Source: Sandarakinorhabdus rubra
GTDB lineage: Bacteria; Pseudomonadota; Alphaproteobacteria; Sphingomonadales; Sphingomonadaceae
Direction of reading: 5' to 3'
Assembly (NCBI RefSeq): GCF_010994245.1
Contig: NZ_WMHO01000001.1
Coordinates: 1 to 61,987 of the forward strand
DNA: 61,987 nucleotides
Numbering within the stretch: the stretch's first letter is position 1; each line of letters begins with the position of its first letter. The notes beneath the pieces were generated by a model. It was not told where the DNA came from. It made no database searches and was given only the letters and a program-made list of their open reading frames with translations. A program made the position numbers and the translations under genes. Shown here piece by piece: positions 5,012 through 51,169 of this stretch.

Positions 5012-5086
5012 TGGGGCGTCGCCAAGCGGTAAGGCAGCGGTTTTTGGTACCGCCATTCCCAGGTTCGAATCCTGGCGCCCCAGCCA
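5012..5086 (+). tRNA. trnQ: tRNA-Gln (anticodon TTG), CCA encoded
   Basis: The cloverleaf is readable. The acceptor strand TGGGGCG (5012-5018) pairs with CGCCCCA (5076-5082), the discriminator is G5083, and CCA is at 5084-5086. The anticodon stem GCGGT/ACCGC encloses the loop TTTTGGT with anticodon TTG at 5044-5046. The T loop GGTTCGAATCC is canonical. The last 17 bases are the attachment core of the genomic island, and integration leaves the tRNA intact. The island now separates the gene from the T-rich sequence (51172-51189) that followed it originally. Confidence 0.97.
5070..5086 (+). other. attL core (3' end of tRNA-Gln)
   Basis: The sequence tcctggcgccccagcca spans the 3' half of the T stem, the acceptor strand and CCA. 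It is repeated exactly at 51153-51169. Insertion within the tRNA 3' end is the usual target of this class of tyrosine recombinase. Confidence 0.9.
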
Positions 5087-5150: not shown

Positions 5151-5174
5151 TCTGTTACAGTGGACTGTAACAGA
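5151..5174. repeat. palindrome near left island end, partner of the one at 51070-51092
   Basis: TCTGTTACAG and CTGTAACAGA flank a 4-bp spacer, forming a 24-bp palindrome 64 bp inside the attL core and 19 bp before the integrase ATG at 5193. A near copy lies inside the right end. It could be an arm-type binding site for the integrase, a directionality-factor site, or an operator for integrase expression. Confidence 0.7.
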
Positions 5175-5192
5175 AGGGCGCAAATCTCAGGC

Positions 5193-6932
5193 ATGCGGGC
5201 GGTTCCAAACACCATCCGGCGGGGCGGCGTTTTCTACTTCAGGCGCTCGATTCCGCGTGACCTGAGAACCCTACTCAACCGCGCCGAGCTGTGCTGTAGT
5301 CTCAGGACGTCGGACATCGGGGCCGCCCGTGGCCTGTCCCGATCCCTCTATCTGCGTTCGGAGGAACTGTTTGAGATTGCAAGGTCGTCACCCATGCTGA
5401 GCGAAGCCGACCTCGCGCGGATCGTGCAAGAATTCTACGCACGCGTCCTCGATCAGGACAACCAATGGCGGCTGGCCAGCGCTGGTCCGCTGGACGAGAG
5501 CATGCGGCTGGCGCTCGTTGCCAGGTACTCAGAACTGGCGGAGAGTACGCGCAAGGACCTCGCCAGAAGCAATTTCGGGGCCGTTGACGAGATCGGCCAG
5601 TGGATGATCCAGAAGCACGGGCTGTCGGGCAAGCTTGACCGAAAAGATGAGCGGCTGGTCCGGCAGGCCCTGCTGCGGGCCGGCATTGACCTCGCCGAGG
5701 CAGTTCGTGCCCGGTTCGAAGGGGACTTCAATTTCGAACCGCGCGACAAGCTTCTGAAGACGGCGATCGAGAATGCCGCGGCGGCGCCGCACCCGCAGCC
5801 CGGCATCAAGCAAGCTGCTGAACCAAAGCCGCCTCAACCAGACACTCCAATGTTCTCAGCCGTGGCGGAGGAGTTCCGCCAAACCCAAGCGCGCCTGAAG
5901 GTGTGGGAACAGCAGACAGCACTTCAGGCCCGCAAGACCTATCAGCTCTTTGCCGAGATGTGCGGGGACAAGCCGTTGTCGGCCTACACCAAGCAGGACG
6001 CGACACGCTTCAAGTCGGTCCTCCTCGAGCTGCCCGACAACTACAGCAAGGCCGTCCAGTATCGCGGCATGACCGCAGAAGAGATTGCCAACGCCACCCG
6101 ATCCCAGGACTTGCCGAGAATCAGCCCACGCACGGTCAAACGTCATCTCACGGCAATGTCCGCCCTCTGGGACAGTGGGATCGAGAGCGGCGAGCTCTCA
6201 GCCAATATCTTCAGAGGGTTCAAGCTCCCGGCACAGAAGCGGGCCCAGGACCAACGGTCTATGTGGACGACCGAGGATCTCGATCGCCTGTTCGATACGC
6301 CAGTCTGGCAGGGCTGCCAGTCCGCTGCGAGGCGCTCCAAGCCAGGCAAGCACATTATCCGTGACGAGAAGTATTGGCTGCCCCTGATCGCGCTCTATTC
6401 CGGCATGCGCCAGGAGGAGATCTGCCAGCTGCATCTCACCGACATCCGCCAGATCGACGGCGTGTGGGTGTTCGACATCAATGCGGCGCCGCCCCGCCAG
6501 CTGAAGAACCAAAACGCGGTCAGGATTGTCCCGGTCCACAAGGAGCTCATCCGGCTGGGCCTTCTTGGCTACGTGGAAGACCAACGCAAGGCAGGCCATG
6601 ACATGGTCTTTGACCGACTGACGCCTGGCGGCGCGGACAATCGCCTCGGGCACAATTTCACCAAGTGGTTCACCCGCTATCGCCGTGAAGTTGGTCTCTA
6701 CGAACCCAAGCTGGACTTCCACTCGTTGCGACACAGTGCAACGACCTTTCTGCAGCGGGCAAAGGTGCCGGTGGCATTAATCGACGCACTCACCGGTCAC
6801 AGCACTCCTGGCGAGACGGCGCGCTATAGCAAGGGCTATGAAGTGATTGATCTACAGGAAGCGATCGATAAAATTGATCCAAGACTAAGTTCGAGTACTG
6901 GACTGCGTGAGCGAATTACTCTGAAGGTCTGA
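5193..6932 (+). CDS. tyrosine recombinase (integrase) of the genomic island
   Basis: I start it at ATG 5193 (MRAVPNTIRRGG), because the GTG at 5160 lies inside the palindrome. The 579-residue protein has a DUF6538-type N-terminal segment (GGVFYFRRSIPRDLRT), a SAM-like core-binding domain near residues 210-330, and a catalytic domain. The catalytic residues are visible: Arg406 (SGMRQEE), His510 and Arg513 (HSLRH), His536 (TGHST) and nucleophile Tyr545 (ARYSKGY). It lies beside tRNA-Gln and is transcribed away from it. It should catalyse recombination between attL and attR. The catalytic set looks complete, so it is probably active. Confidence 0.95.
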   Translation: MRAVPNTIRRGGVFYFRRSIPRDLRTLLNRAELCCSLRTSDIGAARGLSRSLYLRSEELFEIARSSPMLSEADLARIVQEFYARVLDQDNQWRLASAGPLDESMRLALVARYSELAESTRKDLARSNFGAVDEIGQWMIQKHGLSGKLDRKDERLVRQALLRAGIDLAEAVRARFEGDFNFEPRDKLLKTAIENAAAAPHPQPGIKQAAEPKPPQPDTPMFSAVAEEFRQTQARLKVWEQQTALQARKTYQLFAEMCGDKPLSAYTKQDATRFKSVLLELPDNYSKAVQYRGMTAEEIANATRSQDLPRISPRTVKRHLTAMSALWDSGIESGELSANIFRGFKLPAQKRAQDQRSMWTTEDLDRLFDTPVWQGCQSAARRSKPGKHIIRDEKYWLPLIALYSGMRQEEICQLHLTDIRQIDGVWVFDINAAPPRQLKNQNAVRIVPVHKELIRLGLLGYVEDQRKAGHDMVFDRLTPGGADNRLGHNFTKWFTRYRREVGLYEPKLDFHSLRHSATTFLQRAKVPVALIDALTGHSTPGETARYSKGYEVIDLQEAIDKIDPRLSSSTGLRERITLKV

Positions 6933-6961: not shown

Positions 6962-6989
6962 TTGACAGCAGAGTCTCGATCCATTAAAT
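6962..6989 (+). promoter_or_regulatory. candidate sigma-70-type promoter after the integrase
   Basis: TTGACA (6962-6967) is followed after 16 bp by TTAAAT (6984-6989) in an AT-rich stretch about 125 bp before the gene at 7115. The -35 is consensus but the -10 matches only partly, so this is a weak candidate. Confidence 0.3.
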
Positions 6990-7114
6990 TTAAAATTGCT
7001 ACTGCATCCACTGTCTGAACTACAGTCTTGCTGAAAACTGCCTAACTATCCTTCCATCTAAATAAAATACTTACTGTCTCTTCCCCCTTTGGGGAGATTT
7101 GTAAGAGGCGGAAA

Positions 7115-7402: not shown

Positions 7403-7438
7403 GTGATTTTGACGACCCCTAAGGCAGGTTTGCGAACG

Positions 7439-7975: not shown

Positions 7976-7989
7976 CGGGGTGGGAGATC

Positions 7990-8085
7990 ATGCGCAGCAA
8001 TGCAATGAACCCCGACATTCAGTTCCTGAGCTTCGGCACCAATGAGGCTTGGCAGGTTGGGACGTGGGCCGATTGTTCTAGTTAG
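7990..8085 (+). CDS. possible 31-aa small ORF
   Basis: ATG 7990 follows GGGAGATC, a passable ribosome binding site, and reads 31 codons to a TAG at 8083-8085. It ends on top of the stop of the convergent HNH gene. It could be a remnant of a longer gene or a chance frame. There is no recognisable motif. Confidence 0.2.
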   Translation: MRSNAMNPDIQFLSFGTNEAWQVGTWADCSS

Positions 8086-9002: not shown

Positions 9003-9176
9003 GCTGCAATGCCAGGGCATTATGCCGTGGCTGTCAACAGCGTGCCAATTCAAGCCGAGCGGTGCCGATCCAGCCGCGTCTGAACGGCCCAATGTGCGGG
9101 CTCATAGTTCGGGCATCATCCTTGCGCATTCCGTGAATTCTCCTGGCCTCTCGTCACTGCAAGGCTTGGAGACCTC

Positions 9177-26573: not shown

Positions 26574-26938
26574 TTGGCCAACCCTGCCACTTCGGCGATC
26601 ACCTGAACGGCCTCCCACAGCGACTTGGGTTGGTAACGGATCAGGTCCACATCCTTGAAGCCCGGTTCGCGGAAAAGATTGTGGTTCGGTTTACTGATGT
26701 CGAACAGCCGGTGATCGAAAAACGCGTCCTCGCAGTGGGCCAGCCGATGACGCCGCACACTGTCGGCACGGACCCAGATGTTGGCCACAGTCTTGCGGCT
26801 GGGCTCGGTCGCGATTGGCGCACCTTGATGGGTGGCATACAGGTTGCAGTGCGCCGGGTGGCGGGTGCCGCTTTGAATCACGCCGGGGTGGGCCTCCACC
26901 AGCGCGGTCACCGCTGCGACGAGCTCTGCGCCGGTCAT
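26570..26938 (-). CDS. small protein between hsdM and hsdS (122 aa)
   Basis: It overlaps hsdM and hsdS by 4 bp each, so its translation is locked into the operon. The sequence has a helical N terminus ([17 protein letters not shown]), a His/Cys stretch ([17 protein letters not shown]) and an aromatic middle ([17 protein letters not shown]). I do not recognise the family. Its position suggests a subunit or regulator of the methylase complex. Confidence 0.6.
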
Positions 26939-28770
26939 GCTGCCAGACCCTCAATCATCGCCTTGATGCGGTCGGTCACTACCAGCAAGTCGGCATCGAT
27001 CTCAGGCAGCGGCCGGGGTGGCTCGAAGACGTAAAAGTGGCGGTTGAATGGGACCTCGTAGCCTACTTTGGTCTTGGCGTGGTCGATCCAAGCGTCGGGC
27101 GCATGGGGCAGCACTTCGCGCTTGAAGTAAGCCTCCACGTCCTCGGCCAGTGGAACATTCTCGGTGTCACGCAAGCTGCTATCGGCCTGTGGCTTGCCCT
27201 TGGCGGCGCCGCGCTGGCCCAGCACGATGTTGCCGCGTTCGTCTCGAAGGGGCCGCTCCACAGTTATGGTGCGATAACCGAAGGCGGTGGTGGGGAAGAC
27301 GCGGGACAGCGGTGCCAGCTTCACCTTGCCGCCTGCAGGCGCTTGGGGCGGGGCTTCATCCTCCCAGATGATTTCCCGCGCAATCTCCTTGCCGTCGGCG
27401 TTCAGCACCGTCGCCAGCTGAGCTTCCTCAGCTTCACCGAACAGGCGGGTGAGGGCGGCGATGTCAGTTTCCCCAAGTTCCTTTCGCTTGGACCCAAGTG
27501 ACTTGCGCATCTTCTGCCAGAAGCTGGAGCCGTCGATCAGCTGCAGCTTGCCCTTGCGGTGCGCGGGTTTGCGGTTCGAAATGACCCAAACGTAGGTGGC
27601 AATACCGGTGTTGAAGAACATGTCCGTTGGCAAGGCGATGATCGCCTCCACCAGGTCATTCTCAAGCAGGTATCGACGGATCTCGCTCTCGCCACTGCCA
27701 GCGCCGCCTGTGAACAGTGGTGAGCCGTTGAGCACGATTGCGAAGCGACAGCCGCCTTGGGCCTCCGGCCGCATCTTGGACAGCATGTGCATCAAGAACA
27801 GGAGCGAGCCGTCCGACACACGTGGCAGGCCTGGCCCGAAGCGCCCGGCGAAACCAAGCGTCTCGTGTTCCTTGCGGACCTCCTTCTCGACCTTCTTCCA
27901 CTCCACGCCGAACGGCGGGTTGGCCAGCATGTAGTCGAACTGCCGCCCAACGTGCCCGTCCTCGGAGAGCGTGTTGCCAAAGGCGATGTTACTGACATCC
28001 TGGCCCTTGATCAGCATGTCGGCCTTGCAGATCGCGTAAGACTCAGGGTTCAGCTCCTGGCCGAACATGGTGAGCTGGGCACCGGGGTTCTGAGCGGTCA
28101 AATGCTCATCAGCGACCGACAGCATGCCGCCGGTTCCGGCAGTGGGGTCATAGATGGTGCGGACGATGCCCGGCTTGGTCAGCGCTTCATCGTCCTCAAC
28201 GAACACCAGGTTGACCATCAGACGGATGACCTCGCGGGGGGTGAAGTGGTCCCCGGCCGTCTCGTTGGAGGCTTCAGCGAACTTCCGGATGAGCTCCTCG
28301 AACACATGGCCCATCTGCATGTTCGAGACTTTGGTGGGATGCAGATCGATGCCGGCGAACTTCTCGGCGACCAGGTAGAGCAGCTTGGCCTTGTCCAGCC
28401 GGTCAACCTGGTTGTGAAACTCGAACCGCGCAAACACGTCGCGCACCTCGGGCGAGAACCCCTGCAGATAGGCGGTGAGGTTCATGCCCACGTTGGCGGC
28501 ATCGCCCAGCACAGCCTTCAGATCGAGCGGCGAGGCGTTGTAGAAGCTGACCCCAGACTTGCGGCGCAAGAAGGCGTCCGGGTTCATGCCCTGGCTCTCG
28601 CGCAGCTTCATCTCTTCAAGCACTGCCGCCTTGGTCGGCGCCAGCACGCAATCCAGCCGGCGCAGCACGGTGAACGGCAGGATGACTTTGCCATAATCCG
28701 CAGGCTTATAGTCTCCCCGCAGCAGGTCAGCGACAGACCAGATGAATGCCGACAATGACTGTTGATTCAT
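26935..28770 (-). CDS. hsdM: type I DNA methyltransferase M subunit
   Basis: The 611-residue protein has the N-terminal helical HsdM_N domain and an N6-adenine methylase domain with the SAM motif DPTAGTGG at 208-215 and the catalytic NPPFG at 284-288. An extended C-terminal region carries long helices. It is the first gene of the leftward operon, so the promoter lies in 28771-29007, where a 10-bp GCACGCGTGC palindrome (28786-28795) could be an operator. The operon order is hsdM, 122-aa gene, hsdS, paralogues B and A, DUF4268 gene, hsdR. Confidence 0.95.
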
Positions 28771-30410: not shown

Positions 30411-32534
30411 CTAAATGATGTTATATATTTGATTTTTAAGCATAATTTTGACTTCTATCTGGACTTGCTCCTCCTCAAATGCCAATTGGCGCATGGCCAA
30501 AGAATCGGTGGCGACAGCCCGCTCGCGTTGCAAGTCGCCTTGAATCATCCGCAATCGGTGAAGCGCCGTCTGGCGCGCTTCGAATGCCTTGAGCTCCCAG
30601 CCGGAGAACAGCTGATCCCATCTCCGTTCCGCAAACAGTGAGCGGAAGCTTGGCAAGTCGGTTGCCATCTCTTGGCGGCTTGCCTGGCTCAGGCTTTGAG
30701 AGACGCTGAAGCGCCGCTGGCTGACGTCGCCAGCCGGCTGGCGCCAAGCATTCGGCACGTCCAGGCGGTCAATGAGCGGCACGCCGTCGACCTCAATTGA
30801 TGGGTCCAGCCCGCGCCACAGCCGCCGGACCAGCTGCCACTGATGAGCAAGCGCACCCTTCGCACTCTTGGCGTGTGACACTTCAAGCCAGTCATCCTGC
30901 CAGCCGTTCCCGCCGAGCTGACGACCAGCCAAGAATTTGCGAAAAATCCAGTCTCTGGCCTTGGCTTCAACAGCGCCGTCCAGGTGCAAGAGGATCGTTG
31001 ACGCGAGCGTGCCGTCGGACAAGCGTTCGTGCAGCACGACCCGGTGCAACAAAGCTTTGTCCGGGCCGCCAGGATCGTCTTTCAACCAGACATCAAATCG
31101 TTGGCCAAGCTCTTTGCCGAGGTCGGAGGTCAGCGCCACGGCCTGTTTCTCGTCACTGATCCCCAGCGCAGCGTGGTTCAGGGTCAGACGCGCGTTGAAC
31201 GTCACCCCGTAGCGCTGCGCCAGGAACGTGGCGGCCGTGTAGATTTCCTCCGCTTGCCGGGCGTTCAAGTGCGTCCCTTGGTCAGCACGGCTGCTTGCAT
31301 CACCGGTTCGCCAGGCTGGCGGCTTGCGGCGGCCGGCATTTGATCGATACGCGGTTCCTTCGCTTGCCCGTACAATGCGAGCTGCGATCTCGCTGCGGTC
31401 ACGCTGCACCGGGCGGTCCATTGTCATCAGGTCGTGAAAGCGGACCACCTGGGCCTCAAGCACCGTCTCGTCGATCCGCAGCGGCATGTAGGACCAGAAT
31501 TCCAGCACTTCATCCATCAGCGTCGCGAGCTCGATGCCCAGAACCTCGGCCCTGGCCGCCAAGCCCGCCACCAGAGCCCGGCAGTCGCCATCGTCCACCA
31601 GAAGCCCAATGTCACTGTTCTGCCGCTGAACGCGGGAGGGGCCAACCTGGGTGAGCTTGAGGTGGAGCAGCAGGTCCAGGATCCGATTGGCCAGTTCGGC
31701 TGGGCTCAGCTGCGCAGCCGCTAGCGATGCGCGTTGCTGGTCGAGATCACCTGCAACCAATGCCTGGAAATAGTCCAGCACATGTCCGACCGTGTCCCGC
31801 CGCAGCTCGGTGCGCGCGCCGTCCACAGTGATTGGACGGCCCTGTGCTGCCGTCGCCACTTGTTCCAGTGCTTGCGCAAGCTGCCGGAACGACGGCGCAT
31901 AGCGAACAAATAGATCGAAGGCGGCTGGCTCACAGCTCAGCCCTTCAGATTGGCAGATCTGCTCCAGGTAGCGGCGCGCTTCGTCAGGGGTTGGTCGCCC
32001 CAACGAAAACTGATCACATCGAGCGCGCAAGGGCGCAATCAGCGCCTCCGGCTCTATCAGGGAAAAGATGTACACGATGTGCTCGGAGGTCTGCTCCAGG
32101 GGCTTCAAGAGCGCCTGCTGCGCCTTGTTCGTCAGCGTGTGCGCTTCATCAAAGTAGATGACATGCGCATCCGCATGGAACGGCTTTATCAAAAGGTCGC
32201 CTTCAACCAGGTTCCGGACTTCCTGGGTCGAGCCATCCAGAGCGCTGTTGATCTCGTGGAAGTGCGGCTGGCGGGAGGCTTCATAGAGGTCGCACGCATC
32301 GCACCTGCTGCATGGTGAGCCATTCTCAAGTGGGGCTTCGCACATCACCGCTTGGGCATAAATCTTGGCCAGCGTGGTTTTGCCGGAGCCGCTGGGACCA
32401 TGCAGGATGATGCTGCCACGCCGCCTGGTTACAACCATCGAGCGTAGCTGCTCGACACACTTGCTTTGCCCAACGACGTCCTCAAACCGGTGTGGTCGGT
32501 ATTTCTCGATCCAGCGCAATGATCCATCAGTCAT
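30411..32534 (-). CDS. DnaX-like clamp loader ATPase with a long unknown C-terminal region
   Basis: I take ATG 32534 (MTDGSLRWIEKYRPHRF), since this opening is that of gamma/tau subunits. Motifs follow in DnaX order: Walker A GPSGSGKTT at 46-54, a zinc site Cys65, Cys75, Cys78, Cys81 (CSRCDAC), Walker B/DEAH at 129-132 within the FDEAHTLTNKAQQALLKPLEQ segment, and the LRARCDQFSL arginine-finger segment. After the lid domain come about 330 residues unlike tau (LNARQAEEIYTAATFLA ... VVLHERLSDGT ... WIFRKFLAG). At 707 residues it is not the housekeeping gene in context. It is divergent from a sliding-clamp-like gene, so the pair may load a private clamp. Confidence 0.8.
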   Translation of the reverse strand: MTDGSLRWIEKYRPHRFEDVVGQSKCVEQLRSMVVTRRRGSIILHGPSGSGKTTLAKIYAQAVMCEAPLENGSPCSRCDACDLYEASRQPHFHEINSALDGSTQEVRNLVEGDLLIKPFHADAHVIYFDEAHTLTNKAQQALLKPLEQTSEHIVYIFSLIEPEALIAPLRARCDQFSLGRPTPDEARRYLEQICQSEGLSCEPAAFDLFVRYAPSFRQLAQALEQVATAAQGRPITVDGARTELRRDTVGHVLDYFQALVAGDLDQQRASLAAAQLSPAELANRILDLLLHLKLTQVGPSRVQRQNSDIGLLVDDGDCRALVAGLAARAEVLGIELATLMDEVLEFWSYMPLRIDETVLEAQVVRFHDLMTMDRPVQRDRSEIAARIVRASEGTAYRSNAGRRKPPAWRTGDASSRADQGTHLNARQAEEIYTAATFLAQRYGVTFNARLTLNHAALGISDEKQAVALTSDLGKELGQRFDVWLKDDPGGPDKALLHRVVLHERLSDGTLASTILLHLDGAVEAKARDWIFRKFLAGRQLGGNGWQDDWLEVSHAKSAKGALAHQWQLVRRLWRGLDPSIEVDGVPLIDRLDVPNAWRQPAGDVSQRRFSVSQSLSQASRQEMATDLPSFRSLFAERRWDQLFSGWELKAFEARQTALHRLRMIQGDLQRERAVATDSLAMRQLAFEEEQVQIEVKIMLKNQIYNII

Positions 32535-32686
32535 GTGTACCCCAGTGGCGTTCCCTGGTTGTTCATGAAAAATGCGGGCAACGTGCCCAACGGTGGTGAA
32601 CGTCGCACATGAAATGGAGGGTGCGGTGAAATTTTTTACTCCCCCCGGCCTATATGTCGGCTGATCTTGCAACCAAGGAAAGCGCC

Positions 32687-34090
32687 ATGACCAGTATTCC
32701 AGATCAAAGGCAGGCAGACGACCAGGACCGCGAGGAAGCTGAGCAGGAGGAGCAGTCTGAAGCGGCGCTAGCGTATCTCCGTCAGCACCTGGAACTCGAG
32801 CTCACCTATGCGGACGGCACCCCAGTGATCGTGCACAAAGAGGACGCAAACCTCCAATTCCATATTGACCCCAAAACGTTGTGCGCCGCGCTTGTCGCGG
32901 TTTGGATGCAGGGTGAGCCCACCGCGAGCAACAAGGCATTTGACGCCATTGGTCCTGGTCGGCCTGGGCATGACGCAGACGATCACCAGACGTGCATCAC
33001 CATCACGCCGAAAGCCATCCGCTTCACGTGCACTGCAGCCAGCGTGAGCTGCGAGACCGAGATCATTTTTGCCGAGCCGCTACGCCATGTCCCTGATGAT
33101 GGGGTGGCCTTCCTGATTCCGCAGAGTGCGTTCAAGAAATTTTTCACACAGCCGAAGCTCATATCTAAGGAAAATAAAACGACAAAAAGGACAGAGAAAA
33201 AATGGATAGGGAAGCCTTGGCAACCAACGTCATATAAATCGATAACATACGAAGAGGGAGAGTCTCTTTTGTGTCTTGAAGACACAAAAGGCGGCATATT
33301 CAGATTTACGGTAAGAAAGGTCGTGGCGCCTGCGCCGCTTAGGGTTGGCGATGGCGCCGTCCCTACCGACGGACTGTCGTGCCAAGCTCTGGCAAGTGCG
33401 TTCAATTACTTGGGATTTATGTTCGTCTCAAGCCCCGCAGCTGTTCAACCCTCGGATGCTTCTCTTGCCGGGGGAGAAATGGTCCTAAACGGCCAAAGCA
33501 AGGGGCTGATATGCCAGAACGCCGCGCTGAAGCCATTCGAATTTGAGATGGCTCTCAGCACTGCCAAGCGAGCTCGACCACTCCTGCGTCGCTTGGCTGG
33601 TAACTGCTCGATGAGCACCGGCGACGAAAAATTGGTCTTGGTCGATCGTGTGTTCAGACTGTCTGTTCCGATCAAGACACTGAAAGTGCCTCCCGTGCAC
33701 TTCAAGCAAGTGAGAAAGGCGCTTGATGGGGGTTCCTGGGCCATCAACAATCATGATTTTGACTTGTTTTGGGCCGGTGTGTACATTGTCACCAGCCCTG
33801 ATACTCCTGTGTCATTGAGCCTCAAGGAGAAGGATGGAGAATACGCGCTTATTGCGGACGGTGTTTCCGCGGCAGGCAAATTTGTTTCCGAGATGAATTT
33901 GAGGCCTGAATGCGACAATAAAGTTCCGGAATTGGCAGTGGACAGTAGGCTGTCGGCGGAAGATGTCGTAAAGCTCGGCCGTCATAAAAAGTATGACGGT
34001 TTATCAATATCGTTCGATAAGAAGTTTGTTGTATTCTCTGAGGCCAAAGATGACGAACGCTGTTATTTTGTACTGTCGTTGAGAATATAA
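32687..34090 (+). CDS. probable sliding-clamp-like (DnaN-fold) protein
   Basis: ATG 32687 has AAGGA upstream. The 467-residue protein looks like a diverged beta clamp: an acidic N-terminal tail, then three repeats of about 120 residues (first around ALAYLRQHLELELTY and PKTLCAALVAVWM, second around LSCQALASAFNYLGFMF, third around LRRLAGN to the end). It has a clamp-like C terminus (YFVLSLRI, compare YVVMPMRL of E. coli DnaN). A lysine-rich insertion near residues 160-185 (KENKTTKRTEKKWIG) lies in an AT-rich stretch. The strongest support is the divergent clamp-loader gene next door. The fold call is by eye and moderate. Confidence 0.55.
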   Translation: MTSIPDQRQADDQDREEAEQEEQSEAALAYLRQHLELELTYADGTPVIVHKEDANLQFHIDPKTLCAALVAVWMQGEPTASNKAFDAIGPGRPGHDADDHQTCITITPKAIRFTCTAASVSCETEIIFAEPLRHVPDDGVAFLIPQSAFKKFFTQPKLISKENKTTKRTEKKWIGKPWQPTSYKSITYEEGESLLCLEDTKGGIFRFTVRKVVAPAPLRVGDGAVPTDGLSCQALASAFNYLGFMFVSSPAAVQPSDASLAGGEMVLNGQSKGLICQNAALKPFEFEMALSTAKRARPLLRRLAGNCSMSTGDEKLVLVDRVFRLSVPIKTLKVPPVHFKQVRKALDGGSWAINNHDFDLFWAGVYIVTSPDTPVSLSLKEKDGEYALIADGVSAAGKFVSEMNLRPECDNKVPELAVDSRLSAEDVVKLGRHKKYDGLSISFDKKFVVFSEAKDDERCYFVLSLRI

Positions 34091-34359: not shown

Positions 34360-34794
34360 TCAAAACAGTGCAAGGACGAAGGGCAAGCCAAAGGTAATGC
34401 CAAGGATCGCTAGGCTGATTGCGAGCCAAATCAGCAAATGCACACGAGCGATGCGATCAAAGTCTGTGAGGATCTCCGGGTCTGGGTGCACAATGGGCTT
34501 TGGCGGTGTCGTTGGCCCAGGGCTACCCTGTTCCCGCCCGCCAGGCCGTTGTTCGCTGCCACCTGGACCCGGTGGGCGCGGGCTCCCTTCCAGGCCCGGC
34601 CATCCTCTGCCTCTGTCTGGGGCGCCTTTCTCTCTCTTGTTGCTGTTGCTGCGATCAGTCTGCGGGTTGCCTGTATATGCGTCCGAAAGTCGCCTCTGAG
34701 CTGCCAGCGCCTCCAGTTCAGCAGCGAGGGCATCGACGCGATTGTCGAGTGCCTGGAAGCGCTGTTGAGCAATGCGGGGACCCGCATTTGTCAT
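34360..34794 (-). CDS. tail-anchored membrane protein, third gene of the ZorAB-like operon (144 aa)
   Basis: The protein has a short coiled coil at the N terminus (QQRFQALDNRVDALAAELEALAAQRR) and a Pro/Gly/Arg-rich linker. A single C-terminal membrane segment (LLIWLAISLAILGITFGLPFVLALF) ends at the stop. It overlaps the ZorB-like gene by 4 bp. The layout fits a small inner-membrane partner of the motor with its coiled coil in the cytosol. I know of no family name. It ends convergent to the clamp-like gene across a 269-bp gap that shows no gene. Confidence 0.65.
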   Translation of the reverse strand: MTNAGPRIAQQRFQALDNRVDALAAELEALAAQRRLSDAYTGNPQTDRSNSNKREKGAPDRGRGWPGLEGSPRPPGPGGSEQRPGGREQGSPGPTTPPKPIVHPDPEILTDFDRIARVHLLIWLAISLAILGITFGLPFVLALF

Positions 34795-35477
34795 TTGAGC
34801 GGAACCATGGTGAAGCGCAGGTCCACGCGGCGGTTTTCTGCGGCGGCGGGGTTCTTCGTGTCGACAAGACGGCTTTCGGCATAGCCGCTGATACCCAGCA
34901 ACGGCACCTGGCTCTTATCGTCAGCGTTGAGAAGTTTGCCTAGGCCTGGCTCCGTCTGGACCAGTGTCTCACGGACGCGTGTCGCGCGGGCAGCCGAGAG
35001 CTCCCAATTGTCTTTCCAAGGGGCTTTGGCGCGCAAGCTGTTGGTATGCCCCTCGATGTAAATCGCATCGAGAACGGGCGCGCTGTCCTTTGGGCAGGCC
35101 GCAATGCGGGTGCGAGTGTAGCATGGCACCTCTGCCTGCAGTGCAGATGCAAGGCGGCGGAGCGTCGGCTCACCTCCTGGCCGCAGAGCAGCGCTGTTGT
35201 TGTCGAACAAAGTATCCTGCGGCAGCCGAATGATGCCTTGATCCAGCGCCGCCTGCTTCTTTGGATCCAGCCCGGCCCTCTTGACCACGGCTTCAAGGAG
35301 CTGAGCCCGAGCTTTTTGCTGCAGTTCGGCCGCACGCTGGAGCTTGTTCTGTTCAATCCGGAACCCGATGGCGAAGGACACCAGCAGGATGATGAAGATG
35401 AACAGGAAGCCGATCACCAGGTCGGTGACAGACGCGTAAAAGTTGTCGGCTGGTGCGGCGCGGCGGGCTCGGCTCAT
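34791..35477 (-). CDS. ZorB/MotB-like stator protein with OmpA peptidoglycan-binding domain
   Basis: The 228-residue protein has one N-terminal membrane helix at about 18-40. Asp19 (SVTDLVIGFLFIF) sits where MotB and ZorB carry the ion-carrying aspartate. A short linker helix follows, then an OmpA-like domain with YIEGHTNSLRAK, NWELSAARATRV, ISGYAESRL and ENRRVDLRF, the peptidoglycan-binding pattern. Two of these with five ZorA-like subunits would form a proton- or sodium-driven motor anchored to the cell wall. It overlaps the ZorA-like gene by 4 bp. It is shorter than flagellar MotB, and no flagellar genes adjoin it. Confidence 0.85.
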   Translation of the reverse strand: MSRARRAAPADNFYASVTDLVIGFLFIFIILLVSFAIGFRIEQNKLQRAAELQQKARAQLLEAVVKRAGLDPKKQAALDQGIIRLPQDTLFDNNSAALRPGGEPTLRRLASALQAEVPCYTRTRIAACPKDSAPVLDAIYIEGHTNSLRAKAPWKDNWELSAARATRVRETLVQTEPGLGKLLNADDKSQVPLLGISGYAESRLVDTKNPAAAENRRVDLRFTMVPLK

Positions 35478-37096
35478 GGTTGCCCCTCAGCTTCTGAGGA
35501 CGGCGGCTCTGGCGACGCTGGCGGCGGCGCGAATGCCTTGATTTCCGGATTTCCGGCAGTTGGTGGCGCAACGCTACTGTCAGGCTGCTCTGGTGGCGAA
35601 ACGGCGCTCTGCGGTTCAGGGGGCAGGGTGGCAGCCAGGGGCATCCCGCTGTCCACAGCCGCTCGCTCAAACAGGGCATCGATCTTGTCGATCACGTTGG
35701 CCAACCCCGTGTCCAGGCCTGCAAGGCCCTGCTGCCAGGCGAGCAATGCCGGAACCACTTCAACACCAGCTCGCTGGAACAGTTTCGCAGCTTCATTGAG
35801 CGCAGCACCGGCAGGCGCGGCTTGGCGCATGGCGTCCACCACAGGCAAGGCATCCACCAGCGCTTGCCGGGCCATGCGAAGACCTTCAGCCCCATCCTCC
35901 AGCTCGCCTCGGAAGCCTTGGACCGACTTGTTGAGCCGATCATCTGCGGCAGCCACGGCAGCCGTCAGGTCGCGCAACAGCGTTTCGATCCCGCCGTAGA
36001 TTTCAGCCGCGTTGTCTGCGCCGGTACGCATGCGCAGCACGCTGTCATCAACCGCTTCGGCATAGGCATTGGCAGCCGCTTCAATGGCTGGCGGCACCTC
36101 GGCAAAGCGGGTCACCGCCGTCTCCAGCTGTTCCGCAAGTGTGCGGCTATACTTCTCAATGGCAATACCAAGGTCGCGCGCGAAAGCTGCAGCCATCATC
36201 TCGATCTGCTTGGCATTCACCTCTGCAACCCGCTGCGACAGATCCGTCATCCGATCCGCAATGGGGGTCAGCGCTGCGACCAGCCCGTTTTCCAGCTCCT
36301 GGCGAACGGACGCTGCCACGGCTGCCGCCATATCTTCGTTGCGCGCCTTGGTGAGGCGGTTCTGTTCTACCGATTGCATCACCAGATCAGCCAGCAGCGA
36401 TTGCTGGCTCACCTGTGGCAGGGCGCTCGCAAGCTCGTCCGCCAACTCTGCCAGGGCAGTCTCGGCACGAAGCACCCCGCGATTGCGGACGACGATGAAA
36501 AAGATCGAGCAGCCAATGCCGACGATGGAGGTCAGAAACTTGAGTGCGCTTGCTTTCAGCAATGGCACAATCGCCGAAATGGATTGTGTGTCGGACGCGT
36601 TCAGGGTGTTTACACCGACCCCAATCGTCAACGCGAGCAGCACAAAAGTGGTGGCAAGGCCGGTGCCAACGAGGATGTTCGGGTAGGCCTCAAACCGACG
36701 GAGATCGACGTCTTTCTGGTAAAGCAGGTCTGGCGAGAAGATGTCCTGAGGGCTGCGGCTCAGTGCCTGCCCATGGCTAGTCATCATCAAGCTCTGTTCC
36801 AGTTCCCGCCAGGCCAGTCCGAGCGGGCCGCCGCGACGGCTCGCCAGAAAGTCGCTCGAGAGCAGAACTGGCATGCTCCGCAGCGCGCCATCGGCTTCGG
36901 CATCGCTTTCGTCAGGGATATGATCGTTGGCGGGCAGGGCTGCCATGCGCCGCATGACCTCCCGTTGGTCGCTGTCTGCCGCCAAAGCGATGGCGTTTAT
37001 CCGGGAACGGAAGGTGCCCCACGTTGACAGGGTCCAGACCACCAGCACGACGATGCCGACGATCGTAAAAGCGAGAAGAAGCGCGTACAAATCCAT
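35474..37096 (-). CDS. ZorA-like MotA/TolQ/ExbB-type motor protein with long cytoplasmic tail
   Basis: The 540-residue protein has membrane segments at about 5-24, 140-163 and 186-204. The second and third carry the polar pore residues expected of this superfamily (GLATTF, LTSIVG). A cytoplasmic loop holds VDLRRFEAYPNILVG, as in TolQ-type proteins. After residue 210 it continues with about 270 residues of heptad-like helix and a proline-rich end. A long tail like this marks ZorA rather than MotA, TolQ or ExbB. It is first in the leftward operon and divergent from the vWA gene, whose promoter lies in the same 70-bp gap. Confidence 0.85.
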   Translation of the reverse strand: MDLYALLLAFTIVGIVVLVVWTLSTWGTFRSRINAIALAADSDQREVMRRMAALPANDHIPDESDAEADGALRSMPVLLSSDFLASRRGGPLGLAWRELEQSLMMTSHGQALSRSPQDIFSPDLLYQKDVDLRRFEAYPNILVGTGLATTFVLLALTIGVGVNTLNASDTQSISAIVPLLKASALKFLTSIVGIGCSIFFIVVRNRGVLRAETALAELADELASALPQVSQQSLLADLVMQSVEQNRLTKARNEDMAAAVAASVRQELENGLVAALTPIADRMTDLSQRVAEVNAKQIEMMAAAFARDLGIAIEKYSRTLAEQLETAVTRFAEVPPAIEAAANAYAEAVDDSVLRMRTGADNAAEIYGGIETLLRDLTAAVAAADDRLNKSVQGFRGELEDGAEGLRMARQALVDALPVVDAMRQAAPAGAALNEAAKLFQRAGVEVVPALLAWQQGLAGLDTGLANVIDKIDALFERAAVDSGMPLAATLPPEPQSAVSPPEQPDSSVAPPTAGNPEIKAFAPPPASPEPPSSEAEGQP

Positions 37097-37166
37097 GTGA
37101 AATCATTACCCTCGCTGGCCTTGCCGTGATTTGGGAGTTGCCATAAAGCTCCATAACGGTCCAGTC

Positions 37167-38492
37167 ATGTATCGGAACGGGGGTGAGTGCGTGGGCTACG
37201 TCACAAGCAAGAGGTTGTGGATATCTTTAGCCGTGCCGCTTCTCATGGCGGCGTCGCCTTCGGCTGCTGTCGCTCCACCTCCTGCGCCCGCGCTTGATGT
37301 CTACCTTGATGCATCGGGAACCATGGCTGGCTTTGTGCAGCCGCAGTTCAACGAGAAGCCCGTTGGTGACCTGCTTACGCTGCTGACCAATGGCGTTGGC
37401 ACGCCGCCCAAGTCAGTTCTGAAATGGCGCTGTTTTGGTGACAAGATCGCTCCAATCACAGGGGACATCGATTCCTTCAGCAAGCCGGCGGTCTTCTCCA
37501 AGCCGACGGCTTCGCCGTGCGGCAATCAGACCAGCCGCGTTGACAAGGTTCTGGCGGAGGTTCGCAAGCAACCAGTTGGAAGCTTGACTTTGATCGTCAG
37601 CGATCTGTGGCTGGATGGCAATGAAATGGCGGCTGATCCGGCGGTCGCCCTGGGCGTGCCTCTAAAGGCGATGCTGGAAGAGGGGCGCGCTGTGGCCATT
37701 CTTGGCGTAGAGGCGCCGTTTAAGGGGAAGATAACGGGCGTTCCAGGGCTGGGCGGTGGCAGTTTTGCTGGCGCCACCAAGCGGCCCCTGTTCATCCTTG
37801 CCGTTGGTCCGGAAACCGATCTGGTCCGATTGGTCCAAGGCTTGCGCGGCAGTGGGGCGCCGTCTTTCTCAGGCAAGCGCCTCAATGTTGCGTTGTTCCG
37901 GGGGCGAGGGGGCCCGCGGAATGTGCCGCTTCCCACAACGATGGGAGGGGGTGTCTCAGGTAATCCTGGGGCCTATCAGATCGACAAGCAGCTCTTTGCC
38001 GAACAGCAAGGGCGGCTGGAGCGCGTAGTGGCAGGCAGGGAAAGGCTATTGCCGGGTACCATCTGGCAAGGCCCACTGACGGGGACCGCATTGGTCGAAC
38101 TGCAGACCAAGCAAGGAGGCTGGCAGCTTCTGTCCAAGCCGCTGCCTGTTTGGTGGGAGGCGAATGATAAGCGCAGTCTGCAGTTCCGGTTGGATGCTGC
38201 TTCGCTGAAGGGGCTGCCGGCTGGTAGCTATCGGGTCACGGCGCTCATGGGCAACAAGGGGCTTGCGCGTCCAAATCCAGACACCAAGTGGCTGCGTGAC
38301 TGGAGCCTGTCGCCATCGGAGAAGCCGCAGCCTGGTTTCGTGAAGGCGCTCCAGCTGGCTGTGTTGGCGGACATACTTGAAGCGGGTGACGACCAATTGG
38401 CGCGCCAGGTGCCATTTGGGAAGAAAGGCAGTGTTGAGCTGCCGTTCCGGCCGAACCAACTGTTTCAGTTTAACTTGAAGGTGAAAGAATGA
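37167..38492 (+). CDS. exported von Willebrand factor A-like protein
   Basis: A signal peptide ends near SAAVAP, so the protein is periplasmic or membrane-attached. Shortly after comes DVYLDASGTMAGF, a metal-site (MIDAS-like) motif with Asp48, Ser50 and Thr52, and later LTLIVSDLWLDG, the strand and Asp of a vWA fold. The rest (about residues 200-440) is beta-rich and unassigned. The start is uncertain: ATG 37167, or GTG 37191 with GGGGGTGAG before it. Its stop overlaps the next gene by 4 bp, and it opens the rightward operon of the tubulin/actin-like cassette. Confidence 0.75.
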   Translation: MYRNGGECVGYVTSKRLWISLAVPLLMAASPSAAVAPPPAPALDVYLDASGTMAGFVQPQFNEKPVGDLLTLLTNGVGTPPKSVLKWRCFGDKIAPITGDIDSFSKPAVFSKPTASPCGNQTSRVDKVLAEVRKQPVGSLTLIVSDLWLDGNEMAADPAVALGVPLKAMLEEGRAVAILGVEAPFKGKITGVPGLGGGSFAGATKRPLFILAVGPETDLVRLVQGLRGSGAPSFSGKRLNVALFRGRGGPRNVPLPTTMGGGVSGNPGAYQIDKQLFAEQQGRLERVVAGRERLLPGTIWQGPLTGTALVELQTKQGGWQLLSKPLPVWWEANDKRSLQFRLDAASLKGLPAGSYRVTALMGNKGLARPNPDTKWLRDWSLSPSEKPQPGFVKALQLAVLADILEAGDDQLARQVPFGKKGSVELPFRPNQLFQFNLKVKE

Positions 38493-39151
38493 CCGGAAAG
38501 CACTGGGTTGTTGCCCTTCTTTCGGTTCTGCTGCTGCCGCTGCTGGCTGGGGCCGTGCTGTGGTGGGGCGTGAATGCCCAGCTGGCTGACACTCGCTGGC
38601 TCGATCCATCAGTCTTGAATAACGCGTCCAGCGTACAGCAGGCCGAGCCCGCCGACACGTCCGAAGCAGGTGATGCGGATGAGAATGAGTTTGGCGAGTC
38701 TGCCTTGCCAGAGGTTGAAGACGACGAAGGCCAAACCCAAGGCAATCAGGGCAACGTCCTGGTCGACACAATCCGCGAGCAGGTTGCGGGCCGGTTGGTA
38801 GAGGCCATTTGGCAGGGCGTCCTTGCCACAATCGTTCTGGGCATCGTGTGGACGTTCGTTGTGGCGGCGAAACTGCCATCCGTGGTTGGTCCCCAGTCAG
38901 CGCGCAGTTTGTCTGTGCCTTGGTGGGGTTTGACCCTTGTGCAGATCGTGGCCGTTGCTGTCCTGGCTTATTTGGCGACGGTGAGTGACGAAGTGGCGAC
39001 TTACCTCGTTCAGGCTGGCAAGCTATGGTTCAGCGCCGCCATCGTATTGATATTGCTGATCACGTGGTGGCTGGCCAGCCTTCTGGCCACACCGCACCGT
39101 TTGCGCCCATCGGTGCCTGGCGGCAATAACGTGCCGTTCGGGATGGAGTGA
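38489..39151 (+). CDS. four-helix membrane protein of the cassette (220 aa)
   Basis: Membrane segments are at about 7-28, 105-126, 147-165 and 179-199. An acidic segment of about 45 residues between the first and second (DENEFGESALPEVEDDEGQ) would face the periplasm or the cytosol depending on topology. It overlaps the vWA gene by 4 bp and ends 5 bp before the tubulin-like ATG. It probably links the exported vWA protein to the cytosolic NTPases. I do not recognise a family. Confidence 0.7.
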   Translation: MTGKHWVVALLSVLLLPLLAGAVLWWGVNAQLADTRWLDPSVLNNASSVQQAEPADTSEAGDADENEFGESALPEVEDDEGQTQGNQGNVLVDTIREQVAGRLVEAIWQGVLATIVLGIVWTFVVAAKLPSVVGPQSARSLSVPWWGLTLVQIVAVAVLAYLATVSDEVATYLVQAGKLWFSAAIVLILLITWWLASLLATPHRLRPSVPGGNNVPFGME

Positions 39152-39156
39152 GCGCC

Positions 39157-40662
39157 ATGACCAAAGCCATCGTCATCACCATGGGCGGCACCGGTGCAAA
39201 ACTCGGTGAAGCCCTCACGCATCTTGTTGCTGCCGGGATCGGCCCCAGTGACGTGCACTTGTTCCCGATCGATCAGGACAGTGGCAATGGCAACACAGCC
39301 CGGCTCGAGCGTGTTGCCAAAGCCTATGAGAATTGTCGCAAGCTATGGCGGACGCCAGGCCAGCCGCATGTCGTTACCGATGATCTCTTCGCCCACAATT
39401 TGACGCTTGCGTCCCGTTGGACGCCGCATGATGGCGGCAGCACCTTGTCCAAGTTGCTGGGGAAGCTAGACGAGGAAGACAGGGCCCTCTTCGATCTCCT
39501 GTATTGCCCTCGGACTGAGCAGGACATGGGTCTTGGTGGCGGCTATCGCGCCAGGCCCAATGTTGGGGCTACCGCGTTGACCACGGCCATCCGCGCTACG
39601 CCTCAGCCTGACTTCTGGACTGAACTCACCCAGGCAATGGCGCCAGCCCTGAACGGCAATCCTGTTCGGGTGTTGTTGATGGGCAGCCTGTTCGGTGGAA
39701 CTGGAGCGGCTGGCTTTCCAACCCTAGCGCGCTTGATCCGTAACCACGCTGCCAAGATGCGCATGGGCGACAACCTGAGCATTGGCGGTGTACTGATGCT
39801 GCCCTACTTTGATTTTCGGGATCCTGATCAGGATGCTGAAGGCGATGCGGCCAACGTTGCACGGCAGGAAGAGTTGCTGCTGCAGACCCGCAGTGCACTT
39901 GAGCATTATGCCGAACTGACCTCGCCCCATGGCGCGCTGTTCAGCGACCTCTATCTTGTTGGCTCACAACCCTACACGCGGCTTGCCTACCATGCCCCGC
40001 AAGGCGATGCGCAAAGCAATCCGGCGCTTGCTGTGGAACTGGTCGCGGCCCTGGGCGGGTGTCGTTTCCTCAAAGACGGTCCGAGCGCTGACGGCCCGAA
40101 AGTGTTCGCCACAGCACTGCAGCAAGCCAACGGCTGGAACTGGTCAGATCTTCCGGAGGTCGAGGCCTATGAGAAGCTTGGCCGCTTGCTAAGGCTTGCA
40201 ACGGCGTGGCGGCATTGGGAACCTCTGGCGCTCAATCCCAAGAAGCGATTGGGCTTCCTGAGGGATGCATGGGCCAAGGCGCAGAACCTTGGCAAACTGT
40301 CCGACAATACAGGCCCGCACGTGGAAGCGCTGGATCGTTATCTGGTTCATTTGGTTGAATGGGCTGCCATGGTAGAGGCCTACGCTAGGGGATCCGGGCA
40401 GTCGTTCAACCTTTGGAAAACGGACAAGCAATTGGCCGCGCCGATCAACACCAATGAACCGCCAGCGGCCGTTCAGCTGAAGGATCTGGCTGACGAGAAG
40501 GCGTACGAAGCGGCATTTAATGATTTGATCGTCCCCGCGGAAGGCAAGCTCGACCCAGGAAATGCAGCCAGTCTTCTCACGGAGATTGGTCGGGCGGGCA
40601 AAGAGGATGCGCCAGGCCTGGGCATGTTCATGACGGCGCTCCACCGTGGCTGTGCAGTTTAA
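39157..40662 (+). CDS. tubulin/FtsZ-like GTPase (Tubulin_2-type)
   Basis: ATG 39157 follows GGAG by 8 bp and gives 501 residues. The N terminus has VITMGGTGAKLGEAL, a nucleotide-loop opening, and DVHLFPIDQDSGNG. At residues 176-186, GSLFGGTGAAG is the tubulin signature (GGTGxG-type loop) that contacts GTP phosphates. A later region (PNVGATALTTAIRATPQPDF, GGVLMLPYFDF) is consistent with the N-terminal GTPase domain of the bacterial tubulin-like families that sit outside FtsZ. It is not FtsZ: it lacks the T-loop sequences and genomic context. It may polymerise, but this cannot be read from sequence. Confidence 0.8.
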   Translation: MTKAIVITMGGTGAKLGEALTHLVAAGIGPSDVHLFPIDQDSGNGNTARLERVAKAYENCRKLWRTPGQPHVVTDDLFAHNLTLASRWTPHDGGSTLSKLLGKLDEEDRALFDLLYCPRTEQDMGLGGGYRARPNVGATALTTAIRATPQPDFWTELTQAMAPALNGNPVRVLLMGSLFGGTGAAGFPTLARLIRNHAAKMRMGDNLSIGGVLMLPYFDFRDPDQDAEGDAANVARQEELLLQTRSALEHYAELTSPHGALFSDLYLVGSQPYTRLAYHAPQGDAQSNPALAVELVAALGGCRFLKDGPSADGPKVFATALQQANGWNWSDLPEVEAYEKLGRLLRLATAWRHWEPLALNPKKRLGFLRDAWAKAQNLGKLSDNTGPHVEALDRYLVHLVEWAAMVEAYARGSGQSFNLWKTDKQLAAPINTNEPPAAVQLKDLADEKAYEAAFNDLIVPAEGKLDPGNAASLLTEIGRAGKEDAPGLGMFMTALHRGCAV

Positions 40663-40674
40663 GGGGAGCATCTG

Positions 40675-43600: not shown

Positions 43601-44025
43601 ACCCAAAGCAGGAGGTGGCACGAGGCTTGCTTCACGACGCGCCGTCATCAGCAAGTAACGTGGAGGCATTTTTGCCTTTGGGGCTTGGGCTCGAGCTGCA
43701 ATACGGTGGCAATCTCACTGCAGAAGCGGAACTTGCTCAGGTCACTGGCAAGAAGCCTAGTGCGATCGACATGGCAGACTTCCAGGAGTTCCTAGACGCG
43801 CTGAAGGTTGCCACGGGGATTAACCTCACGATTAGCCAGGGCGGTAGCCTGAAGGCAAAGGACAGCATTGCTCGTGGCACGATAAAAGAGATGGTCAGGG
43901 AAGCCGAGCTGACGCGGCCAGTGAAGCCGCCGTTCGTTGAGGCTCTGCATCTTTTGGTCGACATGCTGGCGCATCCAAAGGATCAGCGTGACCAGTTTCT
44001 GCGCGTTGACGTGGGCAACCCGTAA
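40675..44025 (+). CDS. giant actin/Hsp70-like ATPase (SrfB-like)
   Basis: The 1116-residue protein has an actin/Hsp70 ATPase core in its second half: phosphate-1 loop DFGTTSS at residue 578, phosphate-2 loop DIGGGTTDI at 796, and an adenosine-type AGRGSSYF around 936. These motifs match the family of the virulence-associated protein SrfB. The first 570 residues are unlike it and unassigned, perhaps a binding domain. It starts 12 bp after the tubulin-like stop and ends on the first base of the next gene's ATG. It likely assembles or changes shape upon ATP hydrolysis, possibly driven by the motor. Its partners are inferred from operon order. Confidence 0.8.
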   Translation: MPHYLLPGLTHQELGQPAVSGQWLELPDLKELAADLNISQQADDAVIKSVPDAWAPVRAWRQALFNNRHQLHARTRRQWRALLALLALQPRFSGEYTLSLREVPLDAGNPRWRGVLSELSPAEGIHAASAQEAWLRPVLLRVVPRGGQSVDVAMLTPDTLLAAGHSATALRIPGVVFAEKGLADPLASDLSATDLGIIADYANGIVNALAGQGVSGKSWDGLARELQAYAGDIEALIGSGQRGRRLAVRARRLNLPFTGLHSVLDSSFETDPTQFNPGFSHTQLALRPMSDPAPFGGVVLIDEDLPRTIGGSAASIHVYRELTLKDALNDPARVKAKAAKDGWLAITVDELWTPCVVDSDGTPPAAHGPNCPVPLPVTPLALLLADGDRLRSAVRLTANGKDREATFEVRLEDGRLHTLRRRWQPDQIQRADIDSSMAVWPDFAAADWPFDFLQSAANPFAEVLPQAAVSLRLLQADLNAAGPGRNERAAGWGSGAVLRKLCAQETGQLPDQGEPWLQRMRFADSSQIRGEWQITKMGIEAIAVAVQSDALERSCGLVLVSRRAPALTTQERAKVAIDFGTTSSIAYVEANQRSEPAHLKARSLPIIAVDPSQMDAWAQQKYVTLADFFAGIGLGMPFPTMLKQRDNTPEAAADWPNAGQVLFVPPPEGKSSREVAKWVANQTLKAGLKWQAGPGGDGENNVAALRFLQDLVLRVAAELRDKGVTPERINWRFSYPQAFTDRETAYFKRMTEQVAQALSAKARVEHRTEAEAAMTYFCDDSEQAFTAPTQLSVMLDIGGGTTDIAIYLHKEALWRGSVRLAAGDFFSNWLERNSSLLKKAPMGGTDPTADLPNDDSHRKQRRLLIELAASKPSFSDQLKRFMDTTAGADPDLQRLQVTASTALAGLLWYTGRVLKKVLAGGQVDPRLAAHPTILMAGRGSSYFRLLTKPDQQHLTRMLMLGAGLKGNPPELIFSVNPKQEVARGLLHDAPSSASNVEAFLPLGLGLELQYGGNLTAEAELAQVTGKKPSAIDMADFQEFLDALKVATGINLTISQGGSLKAKDSIARGTIKEMVREAELTRPVKPPFVEALHLLVDMLAHPKDQRDQFLRVDVGNP

Positions 44026-51152: not shown

Positions 51153-51169
51153 TCCTGGCGCCCCAGCCA
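51153..51169 (+). other. attR core (17-bp copy of tRNA-Gln 3' end)
   Basis: An exact copy of tcctggcgccccagcca lies outside any tRNA gene. It marks the right boundary of the island. The T-rich stretch just beyond it (from 51172) was probably the original tRNA terminator region. Confidence 0.92.

Follow-up and report, generated by a model that had tools for sequence, protein, structure and literature searches.

Clamps and clamp loaders are usually regarded as housekeeping components of replication, which raises the question of what a loader-like ATPase and a clamp-like protein are doing side by side inside an integrated island. The locus in question lies in a stretch of 61,987 nucleotides of Sandarakinorhabdus rubra (assembly GCF_010994245.1, contig NZ_WMHO01000001.1, positions 1 to 61,987 of the forward strand), the whole of which is called the window below. 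The DnaX-like ATPase (DnaXL) and its neighbour at 32687-34090 probably make up a private sliding-clamp machine that a family of tRNA-integrated islands carries as cargo, and we read the module as a private, mobile loader-and-clamp that changes partners. A ring of the clamp type and its loader would most likely serve to tether the island's own enzymes to DNA. Loader and clamp are both of known kinds, and mobile sets of them already exist. As far as the titles and abstract openings of the open-access literature go, we found no description of this loader family with its own C-terminal domain, of its change of partners, or of a clamp that evades the family models used here as cargo of an integrase island. 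A pair of this sort, with a clamp missed by family models, suggests that mobile elements keep a DNA-tethering machine of their own. The pair comprises the following features:

30411..32534, minus strand: DnaXL, putative DnaX-like clamp-loader ATPase of 707 amino acids (aa) from the ATG at 32534, assigned by family matches and by full-length relatives in two genomes, G718 and G1145
32376..32399, minus strand: Walker A motif GPSGSGKT (aa 46-53)
32292..32342, minus strand: four-cysteine zinc-type motif C65, C75, C78, C81 (C-X9-C-X2-C-X2-C), from motif and alignment
32139..32150, minus strand: Walker B motif DEAH (aa 129-132)
32016..32027, minus strand: arginine-finger segment RARC (aa 170-173), SRC in E. 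coli tau
30414..31358, minus strand: DnaXL C-terminal domain (aa 393-707, about 315 residues), common to the relatives, with a GWE motif
32535..32686, no strand: gap of 152 bp between the divergent starts
32687..34090, plus strand: putative clamp-like protein of 467 aa, extended at its N terminus by a stretch rich in acidic residues, assigned by tail, domain-profile and whole-length tests
34028..34087, plus strand: DnaN-like C-terminal tail, the last 20 residues, ending in YFVLSLRI, from tail scoring

The longest reading of the loader-like open reading frame (ORF) covers 30411-32672 on the minus strand; the ATG at 32534 is the likely start because MTD... also begins the relative in G718. Judged by its sequence, DnaXL is a DnaX-type clamp-loader ATPase that has the catalytic motifs and an added C-terminal domain of its own. 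Similarity to E. coli tau/gamma (E = 6.8e-28) covers residues 55-349 of the long reading (about 295 residues), the AAA+ core is matched by PF13177 (E = 3.3e-19), the top PHROG is a phage clamp loader (4.5e-42), and similarity to PRK14950 extends to residue 365 of the short reading. The score against TIGR02397 was 161.7 bits, under the cut-off of 250, and DnaXL is therefore considered a relative of DnaX and not DnaX itself. A preliminary description of this DNA, made from the letters alone, had proposed a DnaX-type ATPase with Walker A, four cysteines, DEAH and a finger arginine, and these matches and motifs bear it out; our alignment revealed that the finger arginine is kept in three DnaXL relatives as well as in the host DnaX. 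The AAA+ core, Walker A, the four cysteines, DExH and the finger arginine are shared with DnaX (tau/gamma). Unlike DnaX, DnaXL has its own C-terminal domain, which is found only in rare relatives and has no match in PHROGs or NCBIfam. The pentamer-forming collar domain PF12169 was not among the matches listed for DnaXL, which give 25 of 29 Pfam families.

The host has a canonical dnaX of its own (415 bits, contig C448) and a canonical dnaN (contig C13), the latter being the only DnaN that PF02768 finds in the host genome, so the island pair is additional to the host genes. DnaXL is about 28% identical to the host DnaX. In a tree of 43 rows it falls outside canonical DnaX on a very long branch; the row it is joined to there comes from a phage, via two very long branches, and no kinship was drawn from that. 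A recent copy of the host dnaX and dnaN was considered and rejected, given that the canonical genes stand separately and that DnaXL falls outside canonical DnaX in the tree.

The clamp-like ORF covers 32654-34090 on the plus strand in its longest reading, with its likely start at 32687, and the two genes diverge across the 152-bp gap, as had been described. Both ORFs are intact, with 707 and 467 codons. The 467-aa protein is predicted to be a very divergent DnaN-type ring; its kinship with DnaN appears in several comparisons with controls, and from this kinship we infer the ring fold. The last 20 residues scored 11.9 bits against 29 DnaN tails. Only one of 407 control C-termini scored higher, and this one (L047) is itself a further DnaN that a filter had left out of the DnaN set, an unplanned positive; the next best control reached 2.3. 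Across 130,322 windows of 20 residues, a single one reached the tail score. This test was prompted by the earlier remark on a clamp-like C terminus, which accordingly stands beyond chance. With ten residues the test was weaker (55 of 134,392 windows reach the score), and with longer tails of 40, 53, 80 and 110 residues, 4, 4, 2 and 10 of the 407 controls, which include L047, were higher. The control frames include antisense frames.

The body of the protein points the same way. The C-terminal third scored 25.0 against a profile of DnaN domain II, a value that none of 60 shuffles reached (highest 19.9); among 250 of the 407 control ORFs only the DnaN L047 and a plasmid clamp (L037) were higher, and the next scored 24.6. 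In end-to-end alignments corrected by shuffling, the clamp-like protein separated the 29 DnaN from 152 other frames of 330-420 aa with an area under the curve (AUC) of 0.951, compared with 0.602 for the reversed protein, 0.510-0.583 for four unrelated proteins and 0.983 for the plasmid clamp as a positive; the 29 DnaN rows all come from one phylum and are mutually related, and it is the AUC relative to the controls that counts, p-values meaning little. Clamp-like repeats, as proposed in the preliminary description, are borne out in part, namely by the domain II comparison and the whole-length preference for DnaN, whereas eight of the nine domain comparisons gave nothing notable.

The earlier placement of the pair inside an island is upheld by three features:

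5012..5086, plus strand: tRNA-Gln(ttg), the integration site, whose last 17 bp (5070-5086) form one island end
5160..6932, plus strand: DUF6538 tyrosine integrase of the island, sharing 46% identity over 585 positions with the one close to a second pair, in genome G1146
51153..51169, plus strand: 17-bp repeat of the tRNA-Gln 3' end, forming the other island end

The island measures about 46 kb between the copies of the 17-bp repeat, which is the sole repeat of at least 14 bp found for that stretch; by simple arithmetic its chance expectation is well under 0.01. Within it, the pair is found about 24 kb away from the integrase, flanked by a type I restriction set that includes a PDC-S11 gene and by ZorB/ZorA-like genes. 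Type I restriction, PDC-S11, HNH, SNase and ZorAB-like genes make up the defence-type content of the island. The Pfam scan covered 29 island proteins and the PADLOC scan 20, neither taking in some of the smaller frames or HsdM (26935-28770), a name given solely for its motif and position. Among the 29 proteins covered by Pfam, we recognised no polymerase, primase, helicase loader or Rep protein and no second PF13177 protein, such as the product of a delta' gene beside the pair. When 29 island proteins were scanned by regular expression for clamp-binding motifs, the only match was QLTMF in HsdM. Also within the island, at 10745-15483, the gene of an AAA_27 ATPase (PF13514, 1.1e-68) is paired with a metallophosphoesterase gene; we take the two to be SbcC/SbcD- or YhaN/YhaO-like.

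The claim that the loader ATPase has a clamp-like partner gained support from G1146, a distant relative in which the two genes are kept side by side. This genome was opened for its loader match, and its clamp-like protein was one candidate there, not a search hit:

L141:10267-11961, minus strand: clamp-like counterpart in G1146, from its ATG

The G1146 loader runs over two overlapping frames (L141:13090-14304 and 11990-13183), which are 32% and 29% identical to parts of DnaXL, and next to it comes a frame of 587 codons (L141:10267-12027), which gives 565 aa from the ATG; all of these frames are on one strand. The arrangement hence differs, being divergent in the window and same-strand in G1146. 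With the N-terminal extensions trimmed, the two clamp-like proteins scored 18.5 in end-to-end alignment (z-score 6.0), none of 200 shuffles coming near (highest -35); as a yardstick, DnaN against the plasmid clamp gives a z-score of 5.5. In a ranking of 320 frames of 350-620 aa, only two copies of the window protein preceded the G1146 protein (z-score 7.1), and DnaN made up 8 of the 11 frames listed next. Against DnaN, the G1146 protein alone scored 28.3 (0 of 60 shuffles, highest 23.1). When it was combined with the window protein into a two-row profile the score was 30.0 (0 of 100 column shuffles, highest 27.3), and both matches lie across the same domain boundary, the two-row match starting in the second half of a DnaN domain and continuing into the first half of the following one.

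The setting of the G1146 pair is again mobile. About 2 kb upstream of the loader, on the far side of a repeated element, is a DUF6538 integrase with a tRNA-Gln(ctg) next to it; on the other side of the pair, a PDDEXK_13/REase-ARP nuclease is encoded within 10 kb. No repeat of the tRNA end was found in the 15 kb searched. On this evidence the two genes have stayed together at a second and distant integrase locus, in a changed arrangement. The repeated element directly upstream of the loader was taken for an insertion sequence, presumably IS630-like. The two loader frames (L141:11990-14304) correspond to an ATPase part and a C-terminal part, for which a frameshift, a split into two genes and a programmed shift are indistinguishable.

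Several results weigh against the reading of the pair as loader and clamp. On the side of the loader, the neighbourhood of sensor 1 reads ATT, with a threonine pair, in the host and three relatives, and SLI in the window DnaXL. The clamp-like protein has no match in Pfam (E<=0.1), PHROGs or PDB sequences, and the clamp models PF00712, PF02767 and PF02768 do not match it; NCBIfam gives it a single match, with a flagellar L-ring model (E = 0.0022), at 17.8 bits where the cut-off is 480. Compared as profiles over the full length, the protein and DnaN matched with a probability of 3% (E = 0.013). Local alignment with DnaN was no better than with shuffles, 252 of 300 doing as well for one DnaN and 23 of 300 for the host DnaN, and no signal came from the N-terminal and middle thirds or from the profiles of DnaN domains I and III. 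AlphaFold models from the single sequence had a predicted local distance difference test (pLDDT) score of 30.6 for the whole protein and 37.9 for the C-terminal 140 residues; the order of helix, strands, helix and strands in the latter fits a clamp domain and carries no weight at that score. The kinship between the two clamp-like proteins is likewise faint by some measures, with a profile match of 1% probability (E = 0.044, reached by 0 of 100 shuffles) and a local score of 54 compared with 53 for the best shuffle and 52 for the best unrelated window protein. The G1146 protein also separates DnaN less well (AUC 0.799, reversed 0.687). Finally, the pairing is known from two genomes, and no clamp-like neighbour was found for the loaders of G718 and G1145 among 17 frames of 200-900 aa in 13.6 and 20 kb (z-scores of at most 1.6).

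Wider searches returned few relatives. For the clamp-like protein, only the window was found among 195 other genomes of the order, 397 of the phylum and 297 of the family, draws that overlap in part; nothing was found in plasmids or phages, exact peptide words gave nothing beyond the window in viral contigs or genome contigs, and a search of G718 alone at E<=10 gave nothing. A sub-threshold PF02768 place in G718 (E = 0.16), in a 453-aa frame, was judged from its ends to be an unlikely clamp. For the DnaXL C-terminal domain, a search of 279 genomes of the phylum found the window and one other genome, G718, in whose genus 3 of 8 genomes match (G718 included); nothing was found in plasmids or viral contigs. 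When full DnaXL was used as the query against 385 genomes of the class, the window was the only full-length match among the matches listed, the others listed lying within residues 3-359. The DNA pattern for DEAH-x6-QQALLK occurred in seven Chloroflexi stretches and one viral stretch, whose frames match the ATPase part only, and viral loci reached via the ATPase or a two-row alignment match residues 1-268 at most.

Relatives of the loader that have the C-terminal domain are rare, occurring in three genomes, all of one other genus. The partners of the loader differ among them. In G718 and G1145, full-length relatives of DnaXL, 28-29% identical to it, stand between other genes:

L114:4670-5974, 2357-4666 and 102-2378: VapE-like, DnaXL and delta'-like genes, respectively
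L140:9990-11699, 7763-10087 and 5364-7790: VapE-like, DnaXL and delta'-like genes, respectively

The G718 loader is a 770-aa frame that aligns over nearly the whole of DnaXL (29%, 698 columns), flanked by VapE-like (PF05272, 2.8e-7) and delta'-like (PF13177, 2.9e-12) proteins; the contig ends about 100 bp past the delta'-like gene, and further genes may be cut off. G1145 has the same gene order, with a VapE-like protein (PF05272, 3.1e-6) and a delta'-like protein 46% identical to that of G718. Compared to the window, these are full-length loader relatives with different partners. Co-occurrence of the loader with a clamp-like gene, on which the preliminary description had made its proposal depend, is therefore seen in one of the three relatives (G1146), while the other two have VapE-like and delta'-like genes instead. 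The three-gene sets at L114 and L140 lie within 2 kb of tRNA-Ser or tRNA-Arg genes, and each may be a separate mobile unit, serving replication or conflict.

A comparison with known clamps helps to place the window protein. Like the DnaN beta clamp, it shows a whole-length alignment preference, the C-terminal tail and a weak profile similarity across one domain boundary; unlike DnaN, it is about 100 residues longer, has the acidic-rich N-terminal extension and is matched by no Pfam clamp model. The Lysinibacillus plasmid pSSII-1 carries, at L037:4001-8163, dnaX, delta' and a DnaN-like gene annotated as hypothetical. This set resembles the window pair in that a private loader and a private clamp are encoded near one another on a mobile replicon. 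Its clamp, in contrast to that of the window, is recognisably DnaN (PF02767, 0.0013; PHROG processivity factor, 5.6e-12), and the set includes a delta' gene, whereas none was recognised with the window pair among the 29 island proteins covered by Pfam. No similarity above shuffles was found between the plasmid clamp and the window protein (52 of 300). Relatives of the pSSII-1 DnaN-like gene occur on 11 Bacillales plasmid records, and in the one locus opened dnaX and delta' stand beside it. The earlier statement that clamp and loader pairs are unusual outside replication loci consequently needs a limit.

How might the pair work? A DnaX-type oligomer, when bound to ATP, opens a ring clamp, sets the ring on nicked or primer-template DNA and lets it go once the ATP is hydrolysed. 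This mechanism is plausible for DnaXL because the catalytic motifs are kept. ATP-bound DnaXL would open the private ring either alone or with the host delta and delta'; the Pfam scan of 29 island proteins recognised neither subunit. It would then place the ring on primer-template or nicked DNA and let go upon ATP hydrolysis, and the loaded ring would tether island proteins to DNA.

As to the purpose of such tethering, use in conflict with other replicating DNA is a serious possibility, if short of probable, and is slightly likelier than a part in the replication or establishment of the element. In a conflict, as the preliminary description had proposed, the loader would put the clamp on the replication junctions of an invader, and the clamp would recruit island nucleases (the type I restriction enzyme, the AAA_27/metallophosphoesterase pair and the HNH protein). 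The gene content of the island favours this, with its many defence-type genes and no polymerase or primase recognised among the 29 proteins covered by Pfam, as does the PDDEXK_13/REase-ARP nuclease near the G1146 pair; no link was found, however, to any one defence gene across four other ZorB loci and three relatives of a neighbouring cassette, and the scan for clamp-binding motifs gave a match in HsdM alone. The pair may otherwise be the replication kit of a mobile element, lessening its dependence on the host clamp and loader, a role that we likewise hold possible. What favours this role are the VapE-like and delta'-like partners of the loader in G718 and G1145, close to tRNA genes, and the Lysinibacillus plasmid set with clamp relatives on the Bacillales plasmid records, but no replication protein of the kinds named above was recognised among the 29 island proteins covered by Pfam, and the window pair is far from the integrase. 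If the pair acts in conflict, it would represent a new way of sensing or marking replicating DNA; if it acts in replication, integrated islands would be freeing themselves from the host clamp.

Two further explanations question the clamp or its present use. The 467-aa protein might be some other beta-rich partner of the loader, for example an inhibitor or an adaptor, with convergent DnaN-like features, as the missing clamp family match, the silent domain I and III profiles and the low pLDDT of the fold models would allow; we regard this as improbable, given that the whole-length DnaN preference and the tail, domain II and pair-profile tests all exceed their controls. It is hardly more probable that the genes are a decaying relic, captured from a phage or plasmid replicon and now functionless. 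A phage clamp loader as the best PHROG, the split G1146 loader with a repeated element directly upstream and the altered sensor-1 region of DnaXL fit a relic, while the intact ORFs, the kept catalytic motifs and the persistence of the pair in two distant islands speak against it. A more far-reaching version of the reading as a private loader and clamp seems doubtful to us: DnaXL would belong to an undescribed family of mobile-element clamp loaders that swap partners (a fast-evolving clamp in tRNA-Gln islands, VapE-like and delta'-like proteins elsewhere), and the island pair would mark replicating foreign DNA for neighbouring nucleases as a clamp-based layer of defence.

The genes next to the pair were examined in relation to known systems. 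At 34791-37096 the window resembles Zorya in its ZorB and ZorA family matches (1.7e-56 and 1.6e-20), the ZorA-like protein scoring 68 bits in NCBIfam against a cut-off of 190. With a 144-aa gene beside them, these genes cover 34360-37096; the ZorA-like protein has 540 aa and is shorter than the matching 789-aa frame in L095. Zorya systems further comprise ZorC and ZorD, or ZorE, or ZorF and ZorG, according to one report (PMC11890865). PADLOC matched none of the 20 island proteins scanned to any of these five at E<=0.01, and there is no evidence that DnaXL and the clamp replace ZorC-ZorG, which sets the locus apart from Zorya. Counting the window, 5 of 196 genomes of the order matched for ZorB; the four other loci contained no DnaXL or clamp match, the G121 contig being only 3.2 kb, and nothing found there ties the pair to the ZorAB-like genes. 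The pair as the missing effector of the ZorAB-like genes was dropped for lack of support at these loci. Their ZorB genes have neighbours of ZorC/ZorD size, judged by size alone.

A cassette at 37131-44759 encodes a 453-aa protein, which we guess to be von Willebrand A-like, a 220-aa protein, a tubulin-like protein (PF13809, 5.3e-6, just under the cut-off) and a 1116-aa protein with weak MreB-like matches. Three relatives of the cassette (4 of 196 with the window) had neither the pair nor recognisable ZorA/ZorB, and the pair was dropped as a part of this cassette. Three genomes of another genus (L082-L087) keep the four genes in this order, and cyanobacterial plasmids (L002, L003) carry a relative of the 1116-aa protein.

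Other plasmid dnaX loci were also compared. Those of Enterobacter and Sphingomonas have canonical dnaX neighbours, and no clamp is annotated beside dnaX on the Butyrivibrio, Klebsiella and Leptolyngbya plasmids. The plasmid pNY3A (L036), labelled Klebsiella grimontii, encodes an S-layer homology protein and a SAR2788 family toxin; this gives it a Gram-positive look, and the record is possibly mislabelled or mixed. On the Leptolyngbya plasmid the next gene scanned after dnaX encodes a delta'-type protein, and on the Butyrivibrio plasmid pCY186 (L034) dnaX is followed by a gene for a 480-aa protein that matches parts of polymerase III alpha (PF17657, PF07733).

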